From Rhodococcus sp. P-2 (GTDB lineage Bacteria > Actinomycetota > Actinomycetes > Mycobacteriales > Mycobacteriaceae), in NCBI RefSeq assembly GCF_016598535.1, contig NZ_CP066779.1:5826053-5890052 (forward strand): DNA of 64,000 nucleotides. The letters run 5' to 3'. The translations under genes and the position numbers were made by a program. Of the stretch, positions 52,419 through 61,255 are shown piece by piece. Each line of letters opens with the position of its first letter. The first letter of the stretch is position 1. The notes beneath the pieces were generated by a model. The model was given only the letters and a program-made list of their open reading frames with translations. It searched no databases and was not told the origin of the DNA.

Positions 52419-53945
52419 CTAGGCTTCCCAGGGAGCAGGGATGGGGTAGTAGCTCTCCAGGAACTCCGTGATCTTGCGCGTGCGAAGTTCCAGATCGATC
52501 TCCGGAGCGCTGCCGTCGTTGAGGCAGAAGAAGTCCATGGAGCGCTTGGCGAGCAGCGAATCCATGTCGCGCAAACCGGCCTTGACCGTCGTGTCGACGT
52601 ATTTGACGGCTGCGGACTTCTGCACCACCGACCGTCCACTCATCAGTGTGTAGTAGTGATACAGCGAATTGGTCACCGAGATATTGGAACTCGCGCGGAA
52701 GGTGCTTGCTGCAGTTGCCGCGAAGTCTTCGGCGAACTCGCGTTCCATCTCGGCCATCACACTCTTGCGCAGTGGCGTCGCTGCATGCTCGAGATGCCTG
52801 GTGGTCATCAGACCGAAGCGGTCCTGCAGCAGTCGGCGGTTGACGCGGGCGGCATTCTCGAACCCGCTGCGGTCGTTGTCGTTGTGGCCCAAACCGATTC
52901 TGGTGTCGGCCTCGATGAACATGCTGATCCCGCCGGGGGAGAAGAACATGTCCGGGCCGACGGGGCGACCGAAGAACATGTCGTCATTGGAGTAGAGGAA
53001 GTGTTCTGCCAGACCCGGAATATGGTGCAGCTGGCACTCGACAGCTTGAGAATTATGAGTGGGCAAGACACTTGGATCGGCGAAGAACTTTTCGCTGGGC
53101 ATGAACGTGACTCGCGGATCGTCGGCAAGCCAGTCCGGACGATCGGAATCGGTTGCGACGAAGATCCGTCGGATCCACGGCGCGTACATGTGGATGGACC
53201 GTAGCGCGTACTTGAGCTCGTCGATCTGACGGAAACGCGCCTCTGATTCGTCCCCCTCACCGACGATGTAGTTCTGCATCCGCTTGGCGCGCTGAGCCTG
53301 AAACTCTTTGGAAGAGCCGTCGACCCAGGAAAAGACAAGGTCGATATCGAAGCTGATATCGGAGGCATGATCGGCGAACATGTTCTCGATAGTCGGCCAG
53401 ATCCGGCCGAATCGCTCGACGGTTCCTCGGACAGCTTCTTCGGGGAGGACGGTTCGTCGTGTCAGTGAGTTCTCGACGGGTAGGACGATTTCTTCGTCGG
53501 AAATCGACCACAATTCGATTTGAACGCCGATGTTCGCGCCGTAGTTCATCCCGCTTGCGACGTGAACCCTCGGACGGAACAAGCGGAAGATCCGTGACTT
53601 GTTGGTTTTCGACAGGGCACCGTCCGCGACCAGGAGCGCTGGGCTCTTCTTCGCGTCGACAGTTTTGGAATAGAAGGGTGCGTTGGCGCATCCCTCGACA
53701 AGTGCCTGCCGCAGGTTCTTGCGTTCGGTCCAGCTGACCGCGATGACCGGGCGCTCGTCGTTCCCGCGCACGAGTAGATACTCGATTCCTGCGGCGTCGA
53801 GGATGTCGCGGATGAAGAGCAGATCTTCGACCATCGCTTCGAGCGGCGTGGTGGTCGTGATCGCGAGGGCAAAACGATTCTTGAATCGGACAGTCTCGGG
53901 TAGTTCACCCATCCGTGCGCGTGACGCGGCCGACGCCGGTTCCAC
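52419..53945 (-). CDS. Stealth family sugar-phosphate transferase
   Basis: 508 residues from a GTG at 53945. The four Stealth conserved regions are visible: CR1 IDLVFSWVDGSS (about 202), CR2 RQIDELKYALRSIHMYAPWIRRIFVATD, CR3 HNSQAVECQLHHIPGLAEHFLYSNDDMFFG, and CR4 near FFCLNDGSAP. Relatives transfer hexose-1-phosphates in capsule or wall polysaccharide synthesis, and include human GlcNAc-1-phosphotransferase. The frame stays open upstream of the GTG, with GGAAGG followed six bases later by ATT near 54008, so a non-standard start giving about 20 more residues is conceivable. An internal ATG at 53912 is the short alternative. Confidence 0.9.
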   Translation of the reverse strand: MEPASAASRARMGELPETVRFKNRFALAITTTTPLEAMVEDLLFIRDILDAAGIEYLLVRGNDERPVIAVSWTERKNLRQALVEGCANAPFYSKTVDAKKSPALLVADGALSKTNKSRIFRLFRPRVHVASGMNYGANIGVQIELWSISDEEIVLPVENSLTRRTVLPEEAVRGTVERFGRIWPTIENMFADHASDISFDIDLVFSWVDGSSKEFQAQRAKRMQNYIVGEGDESEARFRQIDELKYALRSIHMYAPWIRRIFVATDSDRPDWLADDPRVTFMPSEKFFADPSVLPTHNSQAVECQLHHIPGLAEHFLYSNDDMFFGRPVGPDMFFSPGGISMFIEADTRIGLGHNDNDRSGFENAARVNRRLLQDRFGLMTTRHLEHAATPLRKSVMAEMEREFAEDFAATAASTFRASSNISVTNSLYHYYTLMSGRSVVQKSAAVKYVDTTVKAGLRDMDSLLAKRSMDFFCLNDGSAPEIDLELRTRKITEFLESYYPIPAPWEA

Positions 53946-56064: not shown

Positions 56065-56907
56065 TCAGTCGTGCTGCGGGTGATCCGGCGGGAACATCTG
56101 TCCCCATGAGTGACTGCACGCTCGGCACGTCCATTCGGGGGTGTCCGGTCCCACGACGCAGCCTGTTCCGGCGAGCCACGGTAGGTGATCGAACGGATGG
56201 ACCGGCATCCCCGGGGCACACTGAGCGGTTCTGTGTGCACCGCACTGCGGGCACAGTGGATTCTTCGACAGCATGTAGTCGATGAAGTTGGTGTGCCCGG
56301 AAGTGGCCATCCTTCCGGTGCATTTGCGGCACAGGGCGGCTGGGTAGTCGTCCCCAGGTTCGGCCTGCCTGAAGATCCGTGATGCGGAATGAAAGTGAAG
56401 GCGATCGCCGCTGTTGAACTTTCGCAACGGCATCGGTGCGCTGCAACCTGTGCAGTTTCCCCGCTCGCGCATCAACGTTCGGGCGTGGGCAGCCGTGGAC
56501 GTCGGATCCAGTGTGTCGATGTCGCCGAAGTAGGGCACTTCGTATGACTGGACGGCCGCGAGAATCCGGTCGGCCAGTGCGTCGTCGACCGGCCCTGGAT
56601 CCGTGGGAAAAGTGATGGACCATCGTTGTTCGAGTTCGGGAACGACGGGTAAAGAGCGGAGCGCGCTCACTTCTTCGTCGACTTCCATCCGCGACGTGCC
56701 GTCGAACGGCGCAGCCACGGTCTCGATGCAGAGCACCGTGCGAGGAGTGGTGTCGAGAACAGTGATCACCAGGTCACCGATGGCCATCATTCCGTGCATG
56801 ATCCAGGGATCCACACGCGCTCTGGGTTCGAGAAACGCGACTACGGCATCGATCCATGGCGTGCCGAGTGCGATGAATACGTGTTGACCGGGGCTCCGCG
56901 TGATCAT
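56065..56907 (-). CDS. Hypothetical protein with C-terminal zinc ribbons
   Basis: 280 residues from the ATG at 56905-56907 (MITRSPGQHVFIALG). I do not recognise the family. The N-terminal half is mixed alpha/beta (GTPWIDAVVAFLEPRARVDPW). The C-terminal half has four CxxC pairs: NCTGCSAP, LCRKCTGR, LCPQCGAH and WTCRACSH, enough for two zinc ribbons. Zinc-ribbon tails of this kind usually bind nucleic acid or protein. It lies downstream of the racemase fusion on the same strand after 31 bases, so the two may be cotranscribed. Confidence 0.7.
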   Translation of the reverse strand: MITRSPGQHVFIALGTPWIDAVVAFLEPRARVDPWIMHGMMAIGDLVITVLDTTPRTVLCIETVAAPFDGTSRMEVDEEVSALRSLPVVPELEQRWSITFPTDPGPVDDALADRILAAVQSYEVPYFGDIDTLDPTSTAAHARTLMRERGNCTGCSAPMPLRKFNSGDRLHFHSASRIFRQAEPGDDYPAALCRKCTGRMATSGHTNFIDYMLSKNPLCPQCGAHRTAQCAPGMPVHPFDHLPWLAGTGCVVGPDTPEWTCRACSHSWGQMFPPDHPQHD

Positions 56908-56938
56908 CGGACGATTCTCGCAAGGGCTGCCGACAACG

Positions 56939-58732
56939 TCAGGCTTTGACCACCTTGCGCCCCAGCAGCGATGCAACCAATCCGTCGACGAAGGTCGCCT
57001 GACGGCCGAGAGGATCGGAAGCCGCCGCTGCGACGCTTCCGATCGACATCGATCTCGTCAGGCCGGTCTCGCTGATGAATTCGGCGGCCAGGTGCGCTTC
57101 TCGGAATGTGAGGCCGCCCAGATGCGTCGTGTCGTCGACGCCGAGAACACGCCCGTCGATGATGTCCATGTCGAAGTGGACGTGGACACCGTTCACACCC
57201 TGGCCCGCCGCGGCGAGGACACGAGGCATCAAGGCCGCCATGCCATGACGATCGATCTCGTCGATCGTCACCAGCAACACCCCGTACTCGTCGAGTGCGC
57301 GCTTGTGATCGACCGTGGCGTTCTTGACCCCCACCAAGACGGTGTTCTCCAAACTGGGGCCGTGCAGATCCGCCGCGGACGACAGCAATTGCTCGATATC
57401 GCCGTGGGAGGCGAAAATGATTGCACCCAAATCGGTTCCGGGTTCGGTGGCGATCGGAATTCTGGTGTTCTGCCAGGCCTCGGAAGTGAGCCACAGCGGC
57501 AACGTCGTGAGATCCGCGGCAGCGTTCTCGGCTTGGATGCAGTTGAATCCGATTCCGGACATGTCTTCGCGTAGACCGTGATCGAGGAGATGGCGTGCCA
57601 GGCCGGCAGTTTCGAGGTCGATCAATTCGACTGTTGCATTGGCGTCGATCGGTTCGGTGCCCAGGACATAACGCTTTTCGACGTAGGGCGACGTCATCGC
57701 CATCAAGAGCGCGCCGTAATCGATCGTGAAGTCGACCGTGCCACCCAGTCGGTATTCGTCACCTGTTTCTCCGGCGTCGACGAGGAGGTGATCGCTGCTG
57801 GCACTGATCACCTTCAGACGCGGATCGATCGGGGTCAAGCCTTCCGGCGAGATGTCTTCGCGGCCGATGGACAAGATCAGGCGTCGGCTCGGCTTGTCCT
57901 CGTTGTCGAAGACGGGGCGTCGGCCGAACGCATCTTCGCCTGAGACTCCATACGGCCGCGACGGCTTGACCTTCGCCTCGATGATGTCCGCGGTGAGAGT
58001 GAAGGCATCGTTGTTCAGCAGTTCGTACAGTCCTGGGGGAGTAGGTGATTCGGCCAGTACGATGCTGGCGCCCAAACGCAGATGGTTGATCCCCTCGGGC
58101 ATCGTGCCCGTCTCGAGTAGTGGCAGTGAGAACGTATTGCCGCCGGAAACGATCGGCAGTTCGATCGAGAACCGCTTCGTGATTTCGTCGGCTAGGTAGA
58201 CCAGATTCGACAGGTTGTCGACGGTCGGTTGGATGCCACCGACGCACGCGAGGTTCGCGCCGATTCCGATCAGTCTGATGCCCTCGATGGGAAGGATTTC
58301 AGCGACTACGTCCAACGCCTCCGCCGGCAGGATTCCTTCGCGGAGATCTCCGAGGTCGATCATCAGCACGATGTCGTGGACGACTCCTCGCGTTTGTGCT
58401 GCTCTGCCCAGAGCAGCAATCGTCGTCAACTCGGAGTTGAGGCTGATGTCCGCGTAGCGGATCGTGTCGTCGATCTCGTTGAGCGACGGTGCGCGGATCA
58501 GCATCAGGGGAACGGTGATGCCGTCGCGGCGAATGCGGGCCAGGTTGTCCAGGCGGGAGTCGGCGATCTGCGTGACGCCGCCGCGGACCATTGCTCGTGC
58601 CACTTTGGGGGAGCCGCACGTAGATTTGCTGACACCGGCCACCGATATACCGTGAGCGCTGGACGCCTCGACGAGGACGCGCGCATTCTGTTCGATACGA
58701 CGCAGGTCGACGGTGATGGTCGGGCCGGTCAT
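56939..58732 (-). CDS. PLP-dependent amino-acid racemase fused to a half-arginase domain
   Basis: 597 residues, with GGGAG upstream of the ATG. The N-terminal part (about 1-375) is an alanine-racemase-like PLP barrel of the ornithine racemase/YhfX type; the Schiff-base Lys is probably K36 in GVSKSTCGSP. The C-terminal part (about 460-595) reads like the second half of an arginase/agmatinase: NTVLVGVKNATVDHKRALDEYGV, HFDMDIID (521-526, two metal Asp) and GGLTFREAHL. The first half of arginase, with GGDHS and DAHxD metal ligands, is absent, so hydrolase activity is doubtful. It is divergent from an amino-acid permease. Ornithine or a related amino acid is the likely substrate. Confidence 0.8.
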   Translation of the reverse strand: MTGPTITVDLRRIEQNARVLVEASSAHGISVAGVSKSTCGSPKVARAMVRGGVTQIADSRLDNLARIRRDGITVPLMLIRAPSLNEIDDTIRYADISLNSELTTIAALGRAAQTRGVVHDIVLMIDLGDLREGILPAEALDVVAEILPIEGIRLIGIGANLACVGGIQPTVDNLSNLVYLADEITKRFSIELPIVSGGNTFSLPLLETGTMPEGINHLRLGASIVLAESPTPPGLYELLNNDAFTLTADIIEAKVKPSRPYGVSGEDAFGRRPVFDNEDKPSRRLILSIGREDISPEGLTPIDPRLKVISASSDHLLVDAGETGDEYRLGGTVDFTIDYGALLMAMTSPYVEKRYVLGTEPIDANATVELIDLETAGLARHLLDHGLREDMSGIGFNCIQAENAAADLTTLPLWLTSEAWQNTRIPIATEPGTDLGAIIFASHGDIEQLLSSAADLHGPSLENTVLVGVKNATVDHKRALDEYGVLLVTIDEIDRHGMAALMPRVLAAAGQGVNGVHVHFDMDIIDGRVLGVDDTTHLGGLTFREAHLAAEFISETGLTRSMSIGSVAAAASDPLGRQATFVDGLVASLLGRKVVKA

Positions 58733-58892: not shown

Positions 58893-60338
58893 ATGGCTAC
58901 TCTCGTCAAACACGTACTTCGGCGCAAGCCGGCTTTGCAGATAGACCAGGAGACCGACGCAGATACCAACGGCGGTGAGCTGACCCGCAGTATCGGTTTA
59001 GCGCAGTTGTCCATGTTCGGCATCGGCGCCACGATCGGCACCGGTATTTTCTTCGTCCTCTCGCAGGCTGTCCCGGTTGCGGGTCCGGCAGTGATCATCT
59101 CCTTCGTTGTTGCCGGTCTCGTCGCGGGACTCACGGCGATCTGTTACGCGGAGTTGGCCGGAGCTGTCCCGGCGTCGGGCTCGTCGTATTCCTACGCTTA
59201 CGCGACGCTCGGAGAGCTTCCGGCCATGGCCGTCGGCGCGTGTCTGCTTCTCGAGTACGGAGTCTCGGCCGCGGCGGTGTCCGTCGGATGGTCGCAGTAT
59301 TTGAACCAGCTACTGGGTAATCTCTTCGGGTTCCAGATTCCCGACGCGTTGTCACAAGCGCCGGAACAGGGCGGCATCATCAATCTGCCCGCAGTGATCC
59401 TGGTGTGCCTGTGCGGTGTTCTGCTCATCCGCGGCGCCAGCGAATCAGCCAAGGCCAACGCCATCATGGTCTCGATCAAACTCGCAATTCTGCTGCTCTT
59501 CATCGTGGTCGGCATCGCCGGATGGAACAGCAATCACTTCGCCGACTTCGCACCGTTCGGATTCAGTGGCGTCATGTCCGCCGCCGGAATCATCTTCTTC
59601 TCGTACATCGGCCTCGACGCAGTGTCCACCGCCGGCGAAGAAGTGAAGAACCCTCGTCGCAATCTCCCTCTCGCGATCCTCATTGCGCTCGTGTCCGTCA
59701 CCGCGATCTACATCGCCGTTGTCGCCGTGGCGATCGGTGCACAGGATTCCGCATCGTTCGAAGGTCAGGAAGCCGGACTGTCCGCCATCCTCGAACAGGT
59801 GACCGGATCTACCTGGCCGGGAACACTTCTGGCCGCCGGAGCGGTGATCTCCATCTGCAGCGTCACACTCGTGGTCATCTACGGTCAGACCCGCATCCTG
59901 TTCGCGATGTCACGCGACGGCATGATTCCGTCGATCTTCCACAAGGTGAACCCGCGGACTCTGACGCCGGTGCCCAACACCATCATCGTCTGCGTCGTCA
60001 TCAGCATTCTGGCTGGTTTCATTCCGATCAACTTCCTCGCCGAAATGACCAGCATCGGAACCCTGGTGGCCTTCCTCGTGGTCTCGATCGGGGTCATCAT
60101 CCTGCGGCGCAGTGACCCGGACCTGCCGCGCAGCTTCAAAGTTCCCGGCTATCCGGTGACGCCGATCCTCTCGATCCTGGGCTGCCTGTGGATCATCAAG
60201 GACCTCCGAACCGTCACGATCTACGTGTTCCTCATCTGGGTGACCGTCGCGATCATCTGGTACTTCGCCTACGGTATGAAGCACTCGCGCCTCGGTGCGA
60301 AGAACCGCGCCGAACTGGGATCGGAGTCCGAGTCATGA
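58893..60338 (+). CDS. APC-superfamily cationic amino-acid transporter (CAT type)
   Basis: 481 residues from the ATG at 58893, with AGAGGAG upstream. Twelve or more hydrophobic helices are visible. Family motifs are IGATIGTGIFFVLSQAVPVAGPA in helix 1, CYAELAGAVPASGSSYSYAYATLGEL, FFSYIGLDAVSTAGEEVKNPRRNLP, and GQTRILFAMSRDGMIP. The CAT subgroup takes up basic amino acids, matching a divergent ornithine-type racemase. The stop overlaps the start of the Usp gene by ATGA. Confidence 0.92.
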   Translation: MATLVKHVLRRKPALQIDQETDADTNGGELTRSIGLAQLSMFGIGATIGTGIFFVLSQAVPVAGPAVIISFVVAGLVAGLTAICYAELAGAVPASGSSYSYAYATLGELPAMAVGACLLLEYGVSAAAVSVGWSQYLNQLLGNLFGFQIPDALSQAPEQGGIINLPAVILVCLCGVLLIRGASESAKANAIMVSIKLAILLLFIVVGIAGWNSNHFADFAPFGFSGVMSAAGIIFFSYIGLDAVSTAGEEVKNPRRNLPLAILIALVSVTAIYIAVVAVAIGAQDSASFEGQEAGLSAILEQVTGSTWPGTLLAAGAVISICSVTLVVIYGQTRILFAMSRDGMIPSIFHKVNPRTLTPVPNTIIVCVVISILAGFIPINFLAEMTSIGTLVAFLVVSIGVIILRRSDPDLPRSFKVPGYPVTPILSILGCLWIIKDLRTVTIYVFLIWVTVAIIWYFAYGMKHSRLGAKNRAELGSESES

Positions 60339-61255
60339 CGCTGCTCGCGGGATATGCACCTGACGGTGACGGTTCCGGAACCGTCCATCTTGCAACGCTG
60401 TTGGCGCGCTCGTCCGGTGAACCGCTGGTGATCTGCGCGGTGATTCCCTCGCCGCCACCGCCCGGAATGGCGCGTGTCGACGCCGAATACCACCAGCAAT
60501 TGCGAGCCGAAGCCGAAGCGGCACTGGCGAAAGCGCGGGCAGACATGCCCTCCGACGTCGACGTGACTTATGTCGTGCATGAAGCTCAGTCGACGTCGAG
60601 TGGCCTGCTCGATCTCGTTCACGAGCACGAAGCCAAGATGATCGTCCTGGACTCGTCCACAGCCGGGGTGTTCGGCCACGTGGCTCTCGGCAGCGTCACC
60701 TCCCGCTTGCTGCACAGCTCCGACGTCCCGGTCGCGCTGGCGCCGAGGGGATTTCGAACCAAGCCCGGTGAGGTGGTTCGCCGCGTCACCGCCGCATACT
60801 CGGGCACACCCGATCAGGACGACCTGGTGCTCGCCGCCGCGACCGTGGCTGCGCGTGTCGATGCCGGACTCAGATTGGCGGCGTTTGCAGTTCGTGCAAA
60901 CGCGCAGTACACGACCACGCTCGGGACCGAGGGGGACTCGCCGGTCATCTCCGAGTGGGCCGAGGTGGTCGAGCGCGAGACCAACGCTGCCTTCGAGAGA
61001 GTGCGTGCACTGCCCGAAATACCTGACGTCATGGAATCGGTTATCAGCCATGGCCGTAACTGGGCCGAGGCACTCGAGGGCGTCGAGTGGGATCGAGGTG
61101 ACGTTCTGACGGTCGGCTCGAGCAAGGCGGGTCCACTGGCCCGGGTCTTCCTCGGCAGTCGGGCAGCGAAGATCGTGCGGTACTCGCCGGTTCCGGTGGT
61201 GGTGGTCCCGCGATCCGCGTCGACCCGAATTGTCGATCAGGCCGAAGCGGAATAA
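60335..61255 (+). CDS. Tandem universal stress protein (UspA family)
   Basis: 306 residues from the ATG at 60335, which overlaps the permease stop. Two Usp domains are present: the first (about 1-145) has LGSVTSRLLHSSDVPVAL and the second (about 150-300) has FLGSRAAKIVRYSPVPVVVV. Each approximates the ATP-binding GxxG(9)G(S/T) pattern, with some positions lost. Coupling of an APC permease to a Usp protein recurs in actinobacteria and suggests the Usp modulates transport. That link is inference. Confidence 0.88.
   Translation: MTLLAGYAPDGDGSGTVHLATLLARSSGEPLVICAVIPSPPPPGMARVDAEYHQQLRAEAEAALAKARADMPSDVDVTYVVHEAQSTSSGLLDLVHEHEAKMIVLDSSTAGVFGHVALGSVTSRLLHSSDVPVALAPRGFRTKPGEVVRRVTAAYSGTPDQDDLVLAAATVAARVDAGLRLAAFAVRANAQYTTTLGTEGDSPVISEWAEVVERETNAAFERVRALPEIPDVMESVISHGRNWAEALEGVEWDRGDVLTVGSSKAGPLARVFLGSRAAKIVRYSPVPVVVVPRSASTRIVDQAEAE

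Follow-up and report, generated by a model that had tools for sequence, protein, structure and literature searches.

The window analysed here, a 64,000-nucleotide stretch of the Rhodococcus sp. P-2 genome, carries on its reverse strand a gene in which a PLP racemase domain is continued, in one open frame, by an arginase-like tail. An APC amino-acid permease gene diverges from it and is followed by a universal stress protein gene. The features discussed below are as follows.

56939..58732, reverse strand: whole fusion gene, 597 aa, one open frame
57668..58732, reverse strand: Orr-family PLP racemase domain, residues 1-355 (NF040742, PF01168)
58625..58627, reverse strand: K36, PLP lysine position (column comparison of fusions and unfused homologs)
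57857..57859, reverse strand: E292, beside the tyrosine column of the alanine-racemase GY(A/G)DG motif (fusion/unfused filter; hhalign register)
56942..57667, reverse strand: pseudo-arginase tail, residues 356-597, with sure homology over 413-595
57398..57412, reverse strand: probable worn DAHxD motif ASHGD, residues 441-445 (alignments and segment test)
57362..57364, reverse strand: H457, where the catalytic His of arginase (NIHGM) would probably lie (MAFFT and segment test)
57164..57172, reverse strand: DxD metal pair D521/D523 (phmmer and MAFFT alignments)
57092..57118, reverse strand: GGLTFREAH, residues 539-547 (alignment of fusions)
58893..60338, forward strand: APC amino-acid permease, divergent neighbour of the fusion (NCBIfam amino acid transporter models)
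60335..61255, forward strand: universal stress protein, after the permease (PF00582, 1.9e-23)

Two further genes of the reverse strand lie nearby. A frame of about 280 residues just after the fusion (56065-56913) has several Cys pairs and no Pfam match at 1e-4, and a Stealth-type protein (52419-53945) has all four of the conserved regions known to Pfam.

The racemase domain

Residues 4-355 match the NCBIfam ornithine racemase Orr (NF040742) over model positions 2-351 of 351, with an E-value of 2.3e-117 and a score of 391.9 bits, which falls short of the curated cut-off of 480 for membership by score; because of this shortfall, the substrate is something that we infer rather than read from the family. 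Pfam likewise recognises Ala_racemase_N (PF01168, 3.6e-23) as well as Arginase (5.1e-12), so that the ornithine-racemase-like PLP domain proposed in a first-pass annotation of this DNA is borne out. K36, at the position of the PLP lysine of alanine racemase, is Lys in all nine fusions compared and in 48 of 49 unfused homologs, the remaining one having a gap.

A single racemase position, 292, passed a filter for columns that separate fusions from unfused homologs. It is Glu in 9/9 fusions (six from Rhodococcus and three from plasmids), rows that are close relatives within each group and so do not amount to nine independent events, and in the 49 unfused homologs it is Gln (47), Ala (1) or Leu (1). 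The 58 racemase domains, one of them a fragment, were chosen from the loci collected here, and the pattern was first seen with seven fusion and 27 unfused rows. In one hhalign profile alignment with alanine racemases (2e-11), G290-R291-E292-D293 is laid on the GY(A/G)DG motif, the Tyr of which is the second catalytic base of alanine racemase. On this register, the extra acid at 292 could meet a guanidinium. Compared with unfused Orr, then, the fusion shares K36, has Glu in place of Gln at 292 and carries an extra tail of about 240 residues, which is missing from all 24 unfused loci given; these proteins stop 1-40 residues past the racemase match.

The tail and its metal site

The rocF arginase model TIGR01229 matches residues 460-572 (2e-16) at 60.2 bits, below its curated cut-off of 227.6, and a phmmer comparison with solved structures places Thermus arginase over residues 462-594 (7e-16). 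Together with the Pfam match, these confirm the arginase-like segment of the first-pass annotation, and the DxD pair (D521, D523) and GGLTFRE (539-545) that it had listed are both present; GG.T.RE.H is common to all six aligned fusions. The same annotation had described the segment as the distal half of an arginase. That description is doubtful: the hmmsearch arginase match already begins at residue 413 and runs to 595, and structure models align arginase from near its first strand through to its end. The tail model has an arginase fold by a VIA-align second look at Foldseek's ranking; residues 353-433 have pLDDT < 50 in the predicted model. Half an arginase is probably too small a picture, and the models suggest a whole fold in compact form. 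Relative to bacterial arginase RocF, the tail has about 240 residues rather than about 300 and shares the motifs DxD and GGLT.RE and, by model, the fold.

Six ligands of the binuclear site were counted: the His of GGDHS, all three (Asp, His, Asp) of DAHxD, and both Asp of DxD. One register is common to six MAFFT runs (three modes on each of two sequence sets), and in it the Rhodococcus tails have TSEA. or similar for GGDHS, ASHGD or AAHGD for DAHGD, and DLHGP or DGHGP for NIHGM, and retain DxD and GGLTFRE. In this register the first Asp of DAHxD is lost, its His (H443) and second Asp (D445) are retained, and four of the six ligands are left. The plasmid copies described below read CARRR or SARRR, DSDAA, no His, SPT or similar, and GGITVRE; they are without even the DxD pair that Rhodococcus retains and have one ligand of the six.

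An ungapped segment test agrees with this register for the DAHGD strand, on which 'TDLGAIIFASHGDI' (residues 433-446) was best placed, with 1 of 300 shuffles as good; the corresponding segment of a second Rhodococcus fusion (L033) gave 2/300, and a plasmid-copy segment such as 'DALGMIWIDSDAAM' was placed on the same strand with 0/300. At the NIHGM place the window segment gave 6/300, and 'HGPSL' of L033, which also has the His, was not placed (258/300). No segment was placed on the GGDHS strand by this test, whether from the window ('LPLWLTSEAW', 66/300), from L033 (18/300) or from the plasmid copies ('CARRR', 252/300 and 213/300). The register with ASHGD on DAHxD is also backed by other alignments and by one hhalign comparison with arginases. 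A further set of alignments and hmmsearch, as well as alignments between the two fusion groups, put 'LWLTSEA' on DAHxD instead, and Rhodococcus then keeps two of the six ligands. For residues of about 405-445 there are thus two alternatives, of which ASHGD on DAHxD is the probable one, and H457 probably occupies the place of the arginase catalytic His.

Neither register leaves the binuclear site intact. Compared with RocF, at least two of the six ligands are lost in Rhodococcus and five of six in the plasmid copies. Of the two motifs that the first-pass annotation had reported missing, GGDHS is indeed absent; the loss of DAHxD is doubtful, as the ASHGD register keeps its His and second Asp, but the LWLTSEA register leaves the motif lost. 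The residues with which arginases hold their substrate by its amino-acid end are not retained in the tail alignment, an argument against arginine being bound there in the ordinary manner.

Distribution, selection and origin

Of 28 Rhodococcus genomes, seven have a full-length fusion of equal length, and a search with the single protein found the identical seven among 61 genomes. No fusion besides the window's own was found at E <= 1e-30 in 396 genomes drawn from the phylum Actinomycetota or in 394 drawn from the class, no more than three candidates from the first look being scored per listed genome. Outside the phylum, a homologous whole fusion was present in three of 72,556 plasmid records, from Sinorhizobium sp. 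RAC02, Shinella zoogloeoides and a record labelled Roseateles sp. XES5; the organism of the last is flagged as unverified, and its copy is >90% identical to the other two. Among viral contigs, no relative carrying the fusion was confirmed, and a Bacillus-type arginase found no relative. Given the occurrence of the fusion in seven Rhodococcus genomes and three plasmid records, chance or assembly error can be ruled out, and the fusion is real and conserved. Comparison of the Rhodococcus fusion with that of Sinorhizobium gives 47% identity for the racemase and 34% for the tail, the latter over 122 aligning residues.

By the Nei-Gojobori method, four pairs of Rhodococcus fusions give the tail a dN/dS of 0.10-0.14, and three pairs of plasmid copies one of 0.17-0.23; the racemase has 0.05-0.08 in the same seven pairs, so that the value for the tail is about twice that for the racemase in most of them. 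The tail is in use under purifying selection, looser than that on the racemase. These values rule out decay of the tail, despite a tail stub in Shinella sp. WSC3-e.

That stub (plasmid locus L126:6001-6583) comprises the last 79 tail residues, 71% identical, and lies beside RidA; the other genes of the run described below are not annotated there, and the locus perhaps represents a natural loss of the run. On a Roseibium aggregatum plasmid (L146:8001-8465), a short stretch annotated as a hypothetical protein corresponds to no more than the last third of the racemase domain.

In a racemase tree of 34 rows the fusions fall into two groups, and a single clade is not rejected (p-AU 0.335). In a tail tree of 17 rows they form one clade among the arginases (92/92), with a long branch to each group, and the tail is closer to arginase than to agmatinases, the agmatinase of the plasmid run included. 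A single fusion event followed by transfer would be the simpler reading of these trees.

Gene company

In catabolism by way of D-arginine, L-Arg is converted to D-Arg, 2-ketoarginine, guanidinobutyraldehyde, guanidinobutyrate and finally GABA and urea. A run of genes for a D-Arg dehydrogenase pathway was found with the plasmid copies only. In Shinella and in the record labelled Roseateles, the order is permease, universal stress protein, agmatinase, 5-guanidino-2-oxopentanoate decarboxylase, aldehyde dehydrogenase, biotin-carboxylase-like ATP-grasp protein, C45 peptidase, D-amino-acid dehydrogenase, fusion and RidA; the unannotated Sinorhizobium record has the identical order from the stress protein onward. 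Three of the Sinorhizobium enzymes score above their curated cut-offs: the 5-guanidino-2-oxopentanoate decarboxylase (NF005712, 732 bits against 500), the D-amino acid dehydrogenase (NF001933, 452 against 383) and the agmatinase (TIGR01230, 218.6 against 174.3).

The arginine run is not in the window, where only the universal stress protein and the fusion matched among the nine run proteins searched. The window's permease is 55.6% identical to that of the Shinella run and is its best match in the genome (538 bits, the next being 186), and the stress protein is 35% identical to its Shinella counterpart. Elsewhere in the Rhodococcus genome there are two weak D-amino-acid dehydrogenase hits (27-29% identical). 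No Rhodococcus AruI (ketoarginine decarboxylase) was recognised from the best of six hits, which is a thiamine-diphosphate enzyme in an acetolactate synthase/ilv cluster, between the genes for ketol-acid reductoisomerase and dihydroxy-acid dehydratase. Arginase-family matches in the genome number three, namely the fusion, a HutG-like gene in an apparent hut cluster and an agmatinase-type hydrolase, the latter two both far from the fusion.

The agmatinase-type hydrolase has a CN-hydrolase and a flavin amine oxidase in its vicinity (L103:7474-11876; G000:C1 5682473-5686875). An arginine-oxygenase route to guanidinobutyrate is known from actinobacteria; this neighbourhood resembles it and possibly encodes such a route. 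Because genes like those of a guanidinobutyrate route occur in the Rhodococcus genome, the racemase may run towards L-Arg there.

Discussion

With guarded confidence, we favour the view that the gene encodes an Orr-family PLP racemase whose chief substrate is likely arginine and which carries a non-hydrolysing arginase fold for regulation or assembly. Arginine appears the most likely substrate on the strength of the gene company and one residue, E292. In the Shinella and Sinorhizobium runs, the racemase would make D-Arg for the D-amino-acid dehydrogenase, RidA may aid hydrolysis of the imine, and the decarboxylase, aldehyde dehydrogenase and agmatinase-family hydrolase would take 2-ketoarginine to guanidinobutyrate, GABA and urea. 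Rid2 and Rid3 proteins are described as hydrolysing the iminoarginine formed by D-Arg dehydrogenase, and RidA and Rid1 as not doing so (PMC5619798). In Rhodococcus, the enzyme and the permease would probably interconvert imported basic D- and L-amino acids, the racemase probably feeding the genome's own guanidinobutyrase-type route. Several observations stand against this view: the Orr score is below its cut-off, RidA and Rid1 are described as inactive on iminoarginine, the residues for the usual binding of arginine are gone from the tail, the fusions fall into two groups of the racemase tree, and the Rhodococcus window has no matching run.

The tail would most likely sense arginine or a guanidino product, or hold the racemase in a larger assembly, and we express no preference between sensing and assembly. 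The first-pass annotation had likewise suggested a non-hydrolytic module and a D-amino-acid route, suggestions that gain from the plasmid gene run and from the conservation of the tail despite its loss of ligands, the role of the module itself being left at either of these two.

The published system closest in layout is the ancestral ornithine decarboxylase of Fusobacterium nucleatum, a protein of 783 aa which, in the account given of it, has a C-terminal arginase/agmatinase homologue in which two metal Asp are replaced by Ser and Asn, and which is reported as confined to Fusobacteriaceae (PMC8503589). Common to the two fusions, so far as that account describes its own, are a PLP enzyme of basic amino acids, a C-terminal arginase-family domain and the replacement of metal ligands. 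The likeness is one of domain layout, the arginase parts being compared by description, for the Fusobacterium enzyme is a decarboxylase of the aspartate aminotransferase fold, whereas the present one belongs to the alanine-racemase family and is found in Rhodococcus and on Pseudomonadota plasmids. No published description of a racemase-arginase fusion was found in a literature search that covered few subscription journals. The earlier statement that no enzyme of this layout had been described therefore stands, within that search, for the racemase but not for PLP enzymes with a dead arginase in general, a kind that has a published precedent in a different enzyme class (PMC8503589). A second, unrelated class of PLP enzyme now joins that case, and the role of such tails becomes testable.

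Similarly, the metformin hydrolase subunit MetCb is described as an arginase-family fold kept, metal-free, as a binding partner; in contrast to the present tail, it is a subunit of its own, paired with an active ureohydrolase and not fused to a PLP enzyme (PMC11271267). As for the reaction, the broad-spectrum Alr of Pseudomonas putida is described as interconverting the L- and D-forms of Arg and Lys and is implicated in L-Arg catabolism via D-Arg; the description consulted, by which rather than by sequence we liken it to the fusion, makes no mention of an arginase tail (PMC6034422). The same report calls D-Arg catabolism in P. putida not clear and states, as of 2018 and to its authors' knowledge, that no pathway of D-Arg catabolism independent of L-Arg had been characterised (PMC6034422). 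With the present fusion there is now a concrete arginine racemase candidate, the genes of its pathway being set out in one plasmid run.

Several other explanations deserve weighing. The protein might, like unfused Orr, racemise ornithine (or ornithine and lysine), its tail being a ligand-free structural passenger serving stability or oligomer contacts. Orr is after all the best-matching family, the usual arginine contacts are gone, and the looser selection on the tail would suit such a part; moreover, the decarboxylase domain of the Fusobacterium enzyme is described as about as active alone as in the whole protein (PMC8503589). However, enzymes for guanidino compounds are encoded in the plasmid run, E292 marks the fusions of both phyla and purifying selection still acts on the tail, and we regard the passenger as rather unlikely, if a serious contender. 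A tail that recruits a partner, such as the run's agmatinase-family hydrolase or its D-amino-acid dehydrogenase, would follow the example of MetCb, the metal-free subunit that active MetCa is described as needing (PMC11271267), and a ureohydrolase is at hand in the same plasmid run. Since the two other arginase-family genes of Rhodococcus are far from the fusion, and since arginase is a closer relative of the tail than agmatinases are, that of the run among them, we consider recruitment distinctly unlikely.

The Rhodococcus tail could, finally, still be a weak single-metal hydrolase working through H443, D445, D521, D523 and H457, as the four ligands and the catalytic-His place kept in the six MAFFT alignments would allow. 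Yet one DAHxD Asp and the GGDHS His are lost even in Rhodococcus, and the plasmid tail, with its single ligand and no His, is also under purifying selection, so that hydrolysis is not the function the tails share. As the number of ligands kept varies with the register, falling to two in the alternative one, this explanation loses further weight, and we think it very improbable.

Returning to the arginine racemase with a non-hydrolysing tail, we put forward one speculative extension, unlikely to hold as a whole: that dead arginase domains act as reusable sensors of arginine or its guanidino products. Basic-amino-acid enzymes of two unrelated PLP folds, this racemase and the Fusobacterium decarboxylase, would each have acquired one at the C-terminus independently, and here it would gate arginine racemisation. 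If so, an ample supply of arginine would be needed for L-Arg to be committed to the D-Arg route.

The ATP-grasp and C45 genes of the arginine run, side by side in Shinella (plasmid locus L040:5214-7691), form a pair that is also found elsewhere. It adjoins genes of the Orn/Lys/Arg-decarboxylase family in R. leguminosarum (L124:7541-10020) and Roseobacter ponti (L125:7448-9972), and the proteins of that family beside it have no arginase tail by Pfam or NCBIfam. The pair is a possible ligase and hydrolase for a conjugate of a basic amino acid. Its ATP-grasp member scores above the cut-off of NF005096 in both Sinorhizobium and R. leguminosarum; the R. leguminosarum locus lies on a nif-bearing rhizobial plasmid, and that of Roseobacter ponti is also on a plasmid.
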